A program made the translations under genes and the position numbers. The notes below the pieces were generated by a model, which was not told where the DNA came from, searched no databases, and was given only the letters and a program-made list of their open reading frames with translations. 64,000 nt of DNA from assembly GCA_016935985.1 (NCBI GenBank), contig JAFGPW010000008.1, positions 62,001 to 126,000 on the forward strand, written 5' to 3'. Every line of letters starts with the position of its first letter. Position 1 is the first letter of the stretch. This DNA comes from Candidatus Woesearchaeota archaeon. Lineage in GTDB: Archaea > Nanobdellota > Nanobdellia > Woesearchaeales > JAFGPW01. Of this stretch, positions 46,959-51,877 are shown in pieces.

Positions 46959-48122
46959 ATGCCATCAGGGGTGGTCTATATGGAAACACGTTGGGTCCTG
47001 TTGCTCATCATCGTCTTCAGCCTCGCCGCAGCGCCGGCGTACGCGATCGCCTTCCGGGGCGGCGACCAGGTGCGCATCGATGAGGACGGCATGCTCCTCG
47101 ACAACACCTACGCGACCGGCGGGGATATCCGGCTCCTCTCAGCGGTCATGGGCGACTTCATGGCTGCCGGAGGGACGGTCGTGGTGGAAGGCAAGGTCGC
47201 AAGGGACGTCGCGATCGCCGGCGGTCAGATACGGCTCGAGAATGACATAGGCCAGGACGCGCGTGTCGTCGGCGGGACGGTATCGGCCGAGGACGACATC
47301 TGGGGCGACCTGGTGGCGGTCGGCGGCAAGATATACGTCGACGATGAGGTGGAGGTGGCTAAAGACGTCTCGCTTGTCGGTGGCGATATCACCCTCCTCG
47401 GGACGGTCAGGGGGGATGCGTCGCTCACCGGCGGGCGGGTGACCTTCGACGGGATCGTCATGGGCGACCTTGACATCGAGTCTGACGACATCACCTTCGG
47501 CGACAACGCAGTGGTGCACGGCAACATCACCTACACAAGCAGGCAGGCGCTCGAACTCACCACCGGCCAGGCGCGGGGCAGGATCTTCCACATCACGCCG
47601 GAGCAGGGCGCGGCGCCCGGTATGGGCGGCCTCTCCATCATGGCCTACCTCGGCTTCCGGCTCATCGGGCTCTTCGCGCTCCTCCTCGTCGGCATCCTCC
47701 TGCTCCTTCTCCTGCCGAACGCGGGAGAAGGGGTCGCGGCCGCCGTCGGCGGCGCGTTCTGGCGCTCGCTCGGGACGGGGCTCCTCTTCCTCATCCTCGT
47801 GCCGGCGATCGTCGTCGCGCTCCTGCTCACCGTCATCGGCATCCCGCTGGGGCTGATCGTCGCCGCGTGCTGGCTCATCGTGCTCTATCTCTCGCGGGTG
47901 TGGGTGGCGCTCTGGATCGGCGACCGGTTCTGGGCGCGCAGCAAGAGGAAGCCGCACCTGGTCCTGCGGTTCGCGGTCGGTCTCCTCTTCTTCTGTATCG
48001 TCTCGCTGATACCAGGGATCGGCCAGCTCGTGCACATCATCGCGGTTCTCGTGGGCGCCGGCGCTCTCTGCCTGTTCGCCGCCGGCTTCGTCGCGGGCGC
48101 GCGGAAGAAGAGGATGCTCTAG
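46959..48122 (+). CDS. Secreted bactofilin-like/polymer-forming repeat protein with C-terminal membrane domain
   Basis: The N-terminus is a signal peptide (METRWVLLLIIVFSLAAAPA, from the second ATG 46980). Residues about 30-205 are beta-helix-like repeats with VxGxxxxD or DVAIAGGQIRLE-type periodicity (VVVEGKVARDVAIAGG, VVGGTVSAEDDIWGDLVAVG, SLVGGDITLLGTVRGDASLT). The C-terminal half has five to six TM segments. The mixture resembles polymer-forming cytoskeletal (bactofilin/DUF4097-type) proteins attached to a membrane anchor. Start choice (46959 or 46980) is uncertain. Confidence 0.82.
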   Translation: MPSGVVYMETRWVLLLIIVFSLAAAPAYAIAFRGGDQVRIDEDGMLLDNTYATGGDIRLLSAVMGDFMAAGGTVVVEGKVARDVAIAGGQIRLENDIGQDARVVGGTVSAEDDIWGDLVAVGGKIYVDDEVEVAKDVSLVGGDITLLGTVRGDASLTGGRVTFDGIVMGDLDIESDDITFGDNAVVHGNITYTSRQALELTTGQARGRIFHITPEQGAAPGMGGLSIMAYLGFRLIGLFALLLVGILLLLLLPNAGEGVAAAVGGAFWRSLGTGLLFLILVPAIVVALLLTVIGIPLGLIVAACWLIVLYLSRVWVALWIGDRFWARSKRKPHLVLRFAVGLLFFCIVSLIPGIGQLVHIIAVLVGAGALCLFAAGFVAGARKKRML

Positions 48123-48925
48123 ACGGATCCCTTGCGGTGGGCGAAGAGGTCGTCCTTGAGGGTGTCGCCCTCCTGGTATGCCTGGTCGTGCGCGGTGTGC
48201 TGGTCTGATAGGACGAACTCGCGCGCGTACCATGCCTCGAGATCGGCGCGGGAATCGAGGGCTTCCTTGAGCTTGGCGTTGCGCTTCGCGACCGCGAAGG
48301 TCAGTGCGGCCATCGTCCGGTCCGCATCGCTGTTGATGCGGACGAGCTCGCGCTCGACGACGATGTGGTAGCCGCCGTCGGCGACCAGGCGCATCACCCC
48401 TGCGACCGGCTTCTCGTACATCGTGATCCCTGCTGATCCGTACGGGAGAATTCCGATGATGAGGTCAAAAGCCCTGTCGTCGAAGCGCATGATGCGCTCG
48501 CCGCCGCAGTACCCCTTGAGAAGGAACGAGAACCGCTTCTCGCCGAGCACCTCGTCGATCGGTCGCGCCTTCTCGCCCCATACCTGCACCCAGGTGACCT
48601 CTTCCTTAAGGTTATGCAGGTCGGCGAGGACCGCGACCACCCGGTCGATGGATGCGGGCGACTGCTCCTGGATGAGCCGGTAGCCGTCAGCCATCCATTT
48701 CGGCGAGACGTCGGAGATGACGAGCATGTACTCGATGCCCCTCTCCTCGAGGCCACCAATCATCGCGGGGTTGAGGCCGTTGGCGCCGGTCGCAAGATCG
48801 AGGATGCTGAGCGGACGGGAGACCTCCCGGGCGCGTCGCGTCGCGGCATCGAGGACAGCGGCAAGATACTTCTCCCTGGACTCTTCACGGGAATGAAGGA
48901 TTGTCGGCATGATTTGTTCTCTCAT
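48119..48925 (-). CDS. SAM-dependent methyltransferase-like protein
   Basis: The ATG at 48925 overlaps the stop of the upstream lipoprotein gene (ATGA), which fixes the start over the longer alternative. Residues about 40-75 include the class I motif I LDLATGANGLN with the acidic turn in ISDVS, and FDLIIGILPYG is a motif IV-like segment. The family and substrate are not recognised. The C-terminal part is helical. Co-expression with the lipoprotein is indicated by the overlap. Confidence 0.72.
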   Translation of the reverse strand: MREQIMPTILHSREESREKYLAAVLDAATRRAREVSRPLSILDLATGANGLNPAMIGGLEERGIEYMLVISDVSPKWMADGYRLIQEQSPASIDRVVAVLADLHNLKEEVTWVQVWGEKARPIDEVLGEKRFSFLLKGYCGGERIMRFDDRAFDLIIGILPYGSAGITMYEKPVAGVMRLVADGGYHIVVERELVRINSDADRTMAALTFAVAKRNAKLKEALDSRADLEAWYAREFVLSDQHTAHDQAYQEGDTLKDDLFAHRKGSV

Positions 48926-49500
48926 CGTGTACCGAGCCTCTCGAGCGCATAGCGCTTCGCCTGCTCCCACTTCGGGGCGTTGCCGAGCCGCGGCGGCACC
49001 GATTCTATCAAGGAGGGCTTGCCGGGCGCGTAGGCCTCGACGAGGTCGAGCCTGCCGTCGAGGTTCCCGTCGGTGAGCACCTCGCGCCTGCCGTCGCTGA
49101 AGAAGAGCGTTATGTGCACGAGGTCCTCGGGTCCGATGCTCGTCACGCCGCCCGCCCTGATGAACGGCTTGCGGTCCATGTACTCGACGCTGATCGAGCC
49201 GACCCCCTTGAGAGCGGGATACCCGGCGATGCCGTCGCCTGCAGGGACGCTATAGATATACTCGTTCGTGCTGTACGGGACGGTCTTCGTCGTCCAGGTA
49301 TTATGGACCGTGTCCCTGACCTGGGCCGTCCAGTGCGAGGGCCTGATGCCGGTATGGTTCTCATAGACGAGGGAGGCGATGTCGCGCATGCCAGGATCGA
49401 CGCCTTCGGCTGCTGTCAGGCGAACCGATGCCTTCGGCGAGCAGGCGTAGAGGAGGAAGGCGGATACGAGGGTGATCGCCGCGGTAGGGAGGGATCGCAT
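48922..49500 (-). CDS. Lipoprotein of unknown function
   Basis: The 192 aa protein starts MRSLPTAAITLVSAFLLYAC, with the lipobox LYAC. The mature domain is beta-rich (SISVEYMDRKPFIRAGGVTS, VHITLFFSDGRREVLTDGNL). Its promoter is TTTTTATATG (49521-49530 on the minus strand), 25 nt from the ATG. Translation of the methyltransferase-like gene is coupled to its stop. Confidence 0.72.
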   Translation of the reverse strand: MRSLPTAAITLVSAFLLYACSPKASVRLTAAEGVDPGMRDIASLVYENHTGIRPSHWTAQVRDTVHNTWTTKTVPYSTNEYIYSVPAGDGIAGYPALKGVGSISVEYMDRKPFIRAGGVTSIGPEDLVHITLFFSDGRREVLTDGNLDGRLDLVEAYAPGKPSLIESVPPRLGNAPKWEQAKRYALERLGTR

Positions 49501-49540
49501 CCGGCTGGGGCACGCATGCTCATATAAAAATTATCCCATC

Positions 49541-49835
49541 GGGCAGTGATGAATAAAATTCTTATACTATTTCCCAAACAGTATACAAAAAACCATACTA
49601 AATGATTTTTTCGTTCTTCCAGTATATATGTCTTTCTCAAGGTTTTTAAGGATATCAGTATACGAAAACGTAACGTTTATATACGAGTTCGTATATTAAT
49701 TTATAAAGACGCTCAAAATCACCACGCGCTTAGAGGGGACGAGAGGCTTAGAGCGGAGATATTCGGGCGAATCCACCCGGAAGAAGCCCGGAAAGGCCTC
49801 ATTCTCCTGGAAGCGGCGCTGGAGGCGACAGAATC
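49541..49835 (+). promoter_or_regulatory. Long A+T-rich regulatory region and leader of ftsZ
   Basis: The A+T-rich part (49541-49710) holds several TATA-like elements and repeated TATACGA sequences. It includes a perfect inverted repeat ATATACGA-GT-TCGTATAT (49679-49696) and a TATA-like AATTTATAAAG (49697-49707). A 107-nt G+C-rich leader follows, with a hairpin ATTCG-GG-CGAAT (about 49761-49772), GCTTAGAG twice (49728, 49746), and GGAGGCGA 8 nt before the ftsZ ATG. One frame stays open from about 49605 to past 49836 without any ATG/GTG/TTG, and I do not call it. Regulation by a TATACGA-binding factor is an inference. Confidence 0.5.
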
Positions 49836-50870
49836 ATGGAACAGGCTAATGGAATCGGACAGGTGGGGCAGGCGAACATCAAAGTCATCGGTTGCGGCGG
49901 CGCTGGGTGCAATATGGTCAGTTGGCTCTATCGGAAGGGCATCAAGGGCGCGGAGATCATCGCGACAAACACTGACATGCAGCACCTGGACATCACCGGA
50001 GCCAACTACAAGTTCCTGATCGGCAGGAACGTCACGAGGGGCCTCGGCGCAGGCGGCTTCCCCGAGAAGGGGGCTGCGGCGGCGCAGGAGAACCTCAACG
50101 AGATCCGCGACCTCCTGAAAGGGACCGACATGGTCTTCGTGTGCGCCGGCATGGGCGGCGGCACCGGCACCGGCTCCGCTCCGGTGGTGGCGAAGACCGC
50201 GCGGGACGCGGGCTCCATCGTCATCGGCACGGTCACCATGCCCTTCAACATCGAGCGCGCGAGGATCGACAAGGCGGAGTTCGGGCTGCAGCAGCTCCGG
50301 CAGGTATCTGACACCGTCATCGTGCTCGACAACAACCGCCTCGTCCAGATCGCCGGGAACCTCCCGGTCCAGCAGGCGTTCGCCGTCGCGAACGAGCTCA
50401 TCTCCACCATGATCCGGGGAATCGTCGAGACCATCTCGGTGCCATCCTTGGTGAACCTCGATTTCGCCGACGTGAAAGCCATCATGGGCGGCGGCGGCGT
50501 CGCCGCCATCGGCGTCGGCTCATCCGACACCAAGTCCCGGGCTGAGGAGGCGGTCGTGGGAGCGCTCTCCAACCCGCTCCTCGAGATCGACTACAAGGGC
50601 GCGACAGGCGCGCTCGTCCACATCGAGGGCGGGCCCGACATGACGCTCGAGGAGGTCTCCCGCATCGGCGAGCTCGCGACCGCGAACCTCGACCAGGACG
50701 CGAACGTCATCTGGGGCGCGCGCGTCAACGAGCACATGCAGGGCAAGATCACGGTGATGACCATCATCACCGGCGTGCACTCGCCCTGGATACTCGGCGA
50801 AGTGACCCATAAGGAGGCGGCGCGCGAGCGCAAGGCCCTGGGGAACGAGCTCGGAATCCAGATGATCTGA
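49836..50870 (+). CDS. ftsZ: Cell-division protein FtsZ
   Basis: The 344 aa GTPase has the tubulin signature GGGTGTGSAPV, the N-terminal IKVIGCGGAGCNMVSWL, and loop NLDFADVKAIMGGGG (T7-loop region NxDxxD). It assembles into the division ring. The C-terminus ends GIQMI without the C-terminal conserved peptide known for ZipA/FtsA binding. The start was chosen at the ATG at 49836 after GGAGGCGA. A one-base gap separates it from a coiled-coil gene, implying co-transcription. Promoter elements upstream are detailed with the leader. Confidence 0.97.
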   Translation: MEQANGIGQVGQANIKVIGCGGAGCNMVSWLYRKGIKGAEIIATNTDMQHLDITGANYKFLIGRNVTRGLGAGGFPEKGAAAAQENLNEIRDLLKGTDMVFVCAGMGGGTGTGSAPVVAKTARDAGSIVIGTVTMPFNIERARIDKAEFGLQQLRQVSDTVIVLDNNRLVQIAGNLPVQQAFAVANELISTMIRGIVETISVPSLVNLDFADVKAIMGGGGVAAIGVGSSDTKSRAEEAVVGALSNPLLEIDYKGATGALVHIEGGPDMTLEEVSRIGELATANLDQDANVIWGARVNEHMQGKITVMTIITGVHSPWILGEVTHKEAARERKALGNELGIQMI

Positions 50871-50871
50871 A

Positions 50872-51369
50872 ATGGACATCAGCTCAGCGCAGAGGATCAA
50901 CCGGCTCGCCGGCGAGCTGAAGAGGCACGGCTTTGCCCGCACGTCTTCAGACGGCCTGGAGCAGGCCGAACGCATTTTCATCGATGCAGAGCTTCCGAAA
51001 GAGGACAATGGAGCGGCGCCGCAACGACCTTCGAACGACGACGACCTGTACAGGCGGTTCCAAGCATTGCTTGCGCAGCAGAACCAGCGGCTCGCATCCG
51101 GTATGCAGCAATTGCAAGTGACGATCGATTCGATGAAGCAGGAGATCGCCGGGCTCAAGGGCGAACTGGCACAGGCGAAGTCCCAGCTACGGAGTGCCTC
51201 GACAGCTCAGCCGAACGAGCCCGCACCTTCTCCTACCGCGGAGCCGCAGCAGACGCTCAAGACCGAGGAGAAGCCGAAGGAGGAGCAGCGGCCGTACAGC
51301 CAGCGCGTCGGCAACTGGAAGAGCGAGGACGTCTCGATCGAGAAGATGTTCTACTACGGGAAGAAATAA
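50872..51369 (+). CDS. Coiled-coil protein co-transcribed with ftsZ
   Basis: The ATG lies one base after the ftsZ stop, so the two are probably translationally coupled. The 165 aa protein has an N-terminal helix (SSAQRINRLAGELKRHGFAR), a coiled-coil middle (about 60-110, QLQVTIDSMKQEIAGLKGEL), a Pro/Glu-rich linker and a short C-terminal block (WKSEDVSIEKMFYYGKK) that looks like a docking motif. I recognise no known division protein. Role as an FtsZ partner or adaptor is inferred only from position. Confidence 0.72.
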   Translation: MDISSAQRINRLAGELKRHGFARTSSDGLEQAERIFIDAELPKEDNGAAPQRPSNDDDLYRRFQALLAQQNQRLASGMQQLQVTIDSMKQEIAGLKGELAQAKSQLRSASTAQPNEPAPSPTAEPQQTLKTEEKPKEEQRPYSQRVGNWKSEDVSIEKMFYYGKK

Positions 51370-51377
51370 ATAACAAA

Positions 51378-51387
51378 CCTTTTTATT
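51378..51387 (+). promoter_or_regulatory. TATA-like element of A+T-rich gene
   Basis: CCTTTTTATT is centred 27 nt before the ATG at 51410; the region before it (CCTTTTTATTCTTATTTC) could also terminate the ftsZ operon. Confidence 0.4.
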
Positions 51388-51409
51388 CTTATTTCTTCAC
51401 ATCCTATTT

Positions 51410-51877
51410 ATGAGTATAGAATTATTTGGGCTGGTTACTGGTATTATAGGAACTCTTACAGGAATTAGTAGTTTAATTTGGCATGTACTAAACTCCCGTG
51501 CAAAACTAGCTATATCCAATCTAAATTTAGAACTGAATGGTTTTGATCCTGTACAACTGAGGGGATATGAAACAATAGGTGTCGAAATTAATCTCCGAAA
51601 CCGAGGAGTTAAATCCACAACTGTTGAAGAAATCAATTTTTGTTTCCATCATTATCCTAAAAAATTCGATTTTTTTCAACCTTTTTCACTCCAACCCGGA
51701 TCGTCCCATCGCATTCAAGAAGATATCCACTTTACAAATAAAGAATTTACTTCTCTAAAAAGAGCTGGTGATAAAGCTGAGTATAGCGCAACCATTCGAC
51801 ATACCTATGGAAAATGGTCAAGAAGAAGAAAAGGAAATTTATTTACGACCGGACGTTTTTACTTGGTATCTTCTTGA
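51410..51877 (+). CDS. A+T-rich membrane-anchored protein, probably acquired
   Basis: Base composition is clearly different from the neighbours: codons end mostly in A or T, against strong G/C-ending elsewhere. The 155 aa protein has a single N-terminal TM ([20 protein letters not shown]) and a beta-rich soluble domain ([16 protein letters not shown], then [20 protein letters not shown]). No family is recognised. Its own leaderless TATA is present. The 3' end overlaps the convergent Xre gene by 19 nt. The composition indicates horizontal acquisition. Confidence 0.75.

Follow-up and report, generated by a model that had tools for sequence, protein, structure and literature searches.

Does the gene that lies almost fused to the 3' end of an ftsZ gene in a Candidatus Woesearchaeota archaeon (assembly GCA_016935985.1) encode a new partner of FtsZ? 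The locus lies in a stretch of 64,000 nucleotides, here called the window (contig JAFGPW010000008.1, positions 62,001 to 126,000), and the second gene encodes a small coiled-coil protein, here called CC. The features of the pair are as follows, with positions counted from the first nucleotide of the window:

49676..49683, + strand: possible archaeal TATA box (tttatata) 5' of ftsZ, putative function, from reading of the sequence
49836..50870, + strand: ftsZ, first gene of the pair, FtsZ2-type paralogue of 344 aa (Pfam Tubulin 2.6e-45, FtsZ_C 2.3e-31)
50872..51369, + strand: CC gene, coiled-coil, tail-motif protein of 165 aa, read in the sequence from ATG to TAA
50872..50991, + strand: N-terminal helical hairpin of CC, residues 1-40, with helices 3-18 and 25-40 (AlphaFold2 pLDDT 93-97 per block)
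51034..51204, + strand: coiled-coil helix of CC, residues 55-111 (AlphaFold2 model and heptad analysis)
51205..51315, + strand: disordered linker of CC, residues 112-148, rich in P, Q, E, K, S and T (low pLDDT and composition)
51316..51366, + strand: conserved C-terminal peptide of CC, WKSEDVSIEKMFYYGKK, residues 149-165 (17 residues; alignment and reads of the tail pattern)
51380..51399, + strand: T-rich stretch past the CC gene, possible transcription end of a two-gene unit, from reading of the sequence

The spacing reported in the earlier note is exact: a single A (50871) separates the TGA of ftsZ from the ATG of the CC gene. The T-rich stretch after the CC gene, together with the AT-rich block upstream of ftsZ (49500-49749, 36% GC) that holds the TATA-like sequence, makes it plausible that the two genes form one transcription unit and are co-expressed. 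The genome (1.4 Mb in 10 contigs) carries three FtsZ genes: the window copy, a copy at C6:96036 that is 73% identical to it, and a copy at C9:14969 that is 47% identical and probably FtsZ1-like, the names FtsZ1 and FtsZ2 being assigned from these identities. Directly 3' of the CC gene, a 155-codon ORF (window 51410-51877, +) sits inside an AT-rich island (about 34-44% GC, against 62-69% in the surroundings); it looks acquired and has no Pfam match above cut-off. Upstream of ftsZ and divergent from it are a lipoprotein-like ORF with no Pfam match (window 48922-49500, -) and a methyltransferase-like ORF with a weak Ubie_methyltran match (window 48119-48970, -).

The AlphaFold2 model of CC, computed from 24 input sequences, is all-helical and without beta strands (mean pLDDT 77.7, pTM 0.37). 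Residues 55-111 are modelled as a single helix with pLDDT >90 in most blocks, and 81% of the a/d positions are hydrophobic in the best heptad register, so that the coiled coil proposed earlier is borne out. The linker falls below a pLDDT of 50 at residues 123-144, and the tail is modelled as a short, low-confidence helix. The conservation of the tail was assessed with a 17-row alignment of long forms, a 9-row alignment of short forms, an order-wide pattern search and the reading of 30 loci; a further 24-row alignment was gathered with the pattern DVSIEK[MI]F, has a perfect tail by construction and is not part of this evidence. The 17 long and 9 short forms were drawn from another set, the 30 loci of the single-sequence homologue search; four of these (L024 with its two tails, L026, L028 with the hairpin alone, and L030) were left out. 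Residues L16, G20, A32, D153, F160, Y161 and G163 are invariant among the long forms, and N10 is nearly so. In a test of the hairpin motif (conserved N, L, G and A), residues 1-40 of the window protein align with 16 others. The nine short-form members (107-129 aa) lack the N-terminal hairpin and keep the coiled coil and the tail.

Across the family, the tail peptide ends in the consensus DVxI[ED]KxFYxGNK, and the window protein carries DVxI[ED]KxFYxG within six residues of its C-terminus. With D153, F160, Y161 and G163 unchanged in 17/17 rows, the C-terminal motif, which reads as quoted in the earlier note, proves to be conserved. At the DNA level, the tail pattern is found in 62/193 genomes of the order, against 0/193 for a reversed-pattern control. 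Among 343 genomes of the phylum, 66 are positive and all 66 belong to the order; the pattern is absent from 150 genomes of other orders in the same class (0/150). Of 65 matches in the order-wide search, the 30 that have loci were read, and in 30/30 the pattern lies 2-6 residues before a stop codon. One family member (G036) carries the tail twice in tandem, and a 42-codon frame in another genome (G011) consists of the hairpin alone; thus, both ends of the protein behave as separate modules.

A homologue of CC was found by single-sequence search in 32/60 genomes of the order, and a profile search at E<=1e-3 gave a match in 151/193, borderline and weak matches included. The named relatives are mostly titled as Candidatus Woesearchaeota MAGs, and the remaining titles are Nanoarchaeota, Nanoarchaeia, Aenigmatarchaeota, uncultured archaeon and one Euryarchaeota record. 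Profile matches at E 1e-5 to 1e-3 in 15 genomes of the same class were rejected as a spread past the order and taken as coiled-coil noise, because the tail pattern occurs in 0/150 same-class genomes. In our sampling, the family is confined to one archaeal order, which the record titles suggest to be Woesearchaeales.

No Pfam or NCBIfam model scores above its cut-off for the family, and the weak matches to these libraries look like unrelated coiled coils. As the earlier note held, known FtsZ regulators do not match the window protein: ZapA, ZapB, SepF and FtsA are all absent from the 20 Pfam families listed for it at E up to 1, and the sole division model among these is DivIC (E=0.84), whose 9.9 bits, under a cut-off of 28.9, led us to reject membership in DivIC/FtsL (PF04977). 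Comparison of the model with the PDB by Foldseek gave no match at E<=0.001, and a PDB profile search returned designed bundles, GCN4 fusions and other generic coiled coils, so that no known fold was assigned. A match to some unrelated family, which would have spoken against the proposal of the earlier note, was likewise not found. No paper names the protein in the literature searched, which consisted largely of the opening parts of abstracts. The family is thus undescribed in the libraries and papers searched; arCOG may hold an unnamed cluster. A PCNA-interacting (PIP-like) tail was also considered and rejected: the glutamine of the PIP consensus is replaced here by the invariant aspartate, and the invariant residues differ. 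In a few loci only, a gene that looks PCNA-like by eye is found close to the CC gene.

FtsZ is present in 60/60 genomes of the first set, in which every genome represents a different family, and the co-occurrence of FtsZ and CC is therefore uninformative. Members were counted as ftsZ2-linked when the CC gene lies on the same strand within about 1.4 kb after an ftsZ2 gene, as it does in the window. Same-strand ftsZ2-CC or ftsZ2-TPR-CC rows occur in 14/60 genomes, each from another family. Four are direct (the window genome G000, G002, G016 and G040) and ten have a gene for a TPR protein in between (G001, assigned from coordinates, and G003, G014, G026, G030, G038, G045, G049, G051 and G052); one more genome (G042) has ftsZ2-TPR only. 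Linkage was also found, from coordinates compared by eye, in at least 12 of 80 further genomes (G331, G211, G405, G073, G146, G207, G232, G390, G292, G176, G248 and G409), a lower bound that is based on the best rows of a profile search. These were the first 80 in table order of 102 eligible genomes, chosen for holding a family member, and they add five families to the first 14, bringing the linkage to 19 families. The distance from ftsZ2 to the CC gene is about 1.3 kb in G211. In G409, two tail-bearing matches (C15:18113 and 19872) stand in tandem behind one ftsZ2 gene.

At a generous 1% per genome, the chance of 14/60 is P about 1e-15 in a calculation that ignores kinship, and a chance origin of the linkage is remote. 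The arrangement recurs in relatives and is not peculiar to the window, as the neighbourhood survey (14/60 and at least 12/80 genomes) makes clear. A profile match is found in 49 of the first 60 genomes and linkage in 14 of those 49, so that, where a member is present, the CC gene lies away from ftsZ in about seven out of ten genomes. The linkage is real, but not universal.

Which FtsZ copy is linked was examined in a tree built from 71 sequences. Of the 49 rows that make up the main FtsZ2 clade (support 97/78), 2 are linked; of the 22 rows outside it, 13 are, TPR-only rows included. The frame-broken FtsZ of G051 was entered by its longer piece only, and G052b and G038b are labelled as TPR only, although a CC gene is present there. 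Because the tree is poorly resolved (9/68 inner branches well supported), it supports no more than a tendency of the linked copies to be divergent FtsZ2s. When the C-terminal peptides of FtsZ were compared, the linked copies were somewhat more variable around ELGIE, with no clear rule.

The TPR protein that stands between ftsZ2 and the CC gene is about 240 aa long (Pfam TPR_2 1.7e-10). It occurs in 17/60 genomes, in 11 of them beside ftsZ2 and in 3 (G009, G024 and G028) beside a CC gene without ftsZ; the window genome gave no match to it. A small zinc-ribbon protein is often encoded next after CC in ftsZ2-TPR-CC rows (L096, L099, L100, L108 and L114), and at one locus (L154) a zinc-ribbon ORF follows ftsZ2 without CC. 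At three loci (L040, L041 and L042), genes for the TPR protein, CC and a coiled-coil-containing, trypsin-like protease line up, and at two of them (L040 and L041) CC is preceded by a B-box-like zinc-finger gene. A second division gene adjoins CC in G040, where the row reads ftsZ2, CC, SepF and phosphoglycerate kinase (PGK), with SepF identified by Pfam (9.8e-11) and the kinase named by eye. A SepF gene was found in 53/60 genomes searched, the window genome included (G000:C6:143940); since SepF is a separate gene there, CC was rejected as a SepF replacement. According to an excerpt of Pende et al. (2021; PMC8178401), just a few DPANN members have their ftsZ and sepF genes near each other, and the excerpted section 6 of PMC9871819 describes archaeal ftsZ2 contexts without mention of a CC-like protein.

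Away from ftsZ, members of the family adjoin genes for RuBisCO, flavin reductase, secreted proteins or others, and such contexts recur within lineages. A tail-pattern search of the window genome gives one copy; a second member (L039) lies at G000:C7:9680-10171 (-) in a 359-codon frame, beside RuBisCO-like and methyltransferase-like frames, and combines a hairpin and a coiled coil with a long acidic stretch and a tail of degenerate form, TDISEIFNYGK. In G023 (L104, G023:C47, 1-8173), the CC gene stands between cheR and a gene for a ParA-type ATPase, about 16 bases before the latter, in the row CheB-CheA-CheC-CheC-CheD-CheR-CC-ParA. L050 and L104 are the same contig, and the chemotaxis context thus counts as a single genome. 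It stays a single case, because in seven other genomes with relatives of this ParA no CC or Che gene lies within about 1.5 kb. Adjacent genes need not encode proteins that bind one another, and many family members may act outside any division role. The suggestion that CC is an ftsZ partner and a new division protein accordingly holds in part: the recurrent linkage and the lack of a known family stand, but the description is too narrow for a family that is unlinked in about 7/10 genomes and whose second member in the window genome lies by RuBisCO.

We lean slightly towards the reading that CC is a division accessory of FtsZ2 and SepF specific to Woesearchaeales, a coiled-coil tether that would dock through its C-terminal peptide; its binding we infer. 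The tether anatomy follows from the layout of the protein, in which a coiled coil and a flexible linker connect two conserved ends. The C-terminal peptide, DVSIEKMFYYGKK, would dock onto a conserved partner from its flexible linker, and since the tail is shared by long and short forms alike, whether linked or not, it is the tail that most likely binds the common partner. This partner would most likely be FtsZ2 itself or a protein bound to it, for instance SepF, a best guess suggested by the gene rows. The coiled coil would pair two tails in a probable dimer, and the N-terminal hairpin may hold a second partner, a task that in the short form may fall to the operon-encoded TPR protein. As a result, the Z-ring would be crosslinked, or something would be recruited to it.

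Other readings of the same gene have to be set against a division accessory. Long antisense ORFs are frequent in the window, and a chance ORF or a mis-called gene in GC-rich DNA was considered; homologues in dozens of genomes (32/60 by single sequence, 151/193 by profile) conserve both protein ends, however, and this conservation rules it out with a negligible residue of doubt. A function unrelated to division, for instance as a protein-quality or assembly factor, would reduce the linkage to a handful of ancient operon layouts passed down within lineages. The other recurrent neighbours (flavin reductase, RuBisCO, DUF1189, and B-box zinc finger with trypsin-like protease) are compatible with it, but the linkage spans 19 families, takes direct and TPR-spaced forms and mostly involves divergent FtsZ2 copies, and the SepF-containing row in G040 adds a second division gene; we regard this reading as doubtful.

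CC could instead be a general adaptor, its tail docking on a hub common to the whole cell (a landmark protein or a protein of the membrane or nucleoid) while different members bring different cargo, which would be FtsZ2 in some genomes and a chemosensory array with its ParA ATPase in another. That one tail appears in many gene contexts, that many genomes hold a member far from ftsZ and that the CC gene of G023 stands in a Che row before ParA all speak for such an adaptor; the chemotaxis context is nevertheless confined to that genome, the seven other ParA genomes having neither CC nor Che genes within about 1.5 kb, and we consider the general adaptor unlikely, if still worth keeping in mind. 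More speculatively, the C-terminal peptide might serve as an address tag in a positioning system common to all Woesearchaeales, in which a single family of same-tailed adaptors docks different machines (a chemosensory array and its ParA ATPase, a second ring of FtsZ2, perhaps others) on one cellular landmark; this we hold to be improbable.

For CC as a division accessory, several known systems offer comparisons. ZapA and ZapB are bacterial Z-ring crosslinkers that bind FtsZ and crosslink its filaments. CC resembles them as a small cytosolic coiled-coil protein tied to FtsZ for which a crosslinking role is proposed; it differs in its hairpin at the N-terminus, its disordered linker and its C-terminal peptide, in being archaeal and order-specific, and in having no profile match at E<=1 to ZapA (PF05164) or ZapB (PF06005). 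SepF, the archaeal membrane anchor of FtsZ, is likewise an FtsZ accessory, adjoins CC in G040 and, as CC may, could act on FtsZ2, whereas CC has no SepF (PF04472) profile match and is modelled as a hairpin and coiled coil with no beta strands. FtsA has an actin-like ATPase fold of about 400 aa, in contrast to the 165 aa and all-helical model of CC, which has no FtsA match in Pfam. CdpA and CdpB are archaeal division proteins, the latter with a PRC barrel; they resemble CC as FtsZ-related accessories of other archaeal lineages, but CC has no Pfam PRC-barrel match and an all-helical model. PomX-type adaptors link a positioning ATPase to FtsZ or other cargo and, like CC, have a coiled coil with conserved terminal segments; no profile match was seen, and ParA neighbours CC in one genome only. 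By analogy, the family may work like ZapB-type or other known FtsZ accessories, and it belongs to none of them by profile.

Cell division is little studied in DPANN archaea, and many of these genomes hold two FtsZ2 copies. With its tendency to lie behind the divergent FtsZ2 copy, in one case within a row that also includes SepF, the CC family is a concrete division candidate, and its short tail peptide is directly testable in vitro. If the proposed role is true, CC would be a lineage-specific FtsZ accessory and perhaps a marker of a second, specialised FtsZ2 system. The CC family is thus a good candidate for a new part of the division machinery in these tiny archaea.
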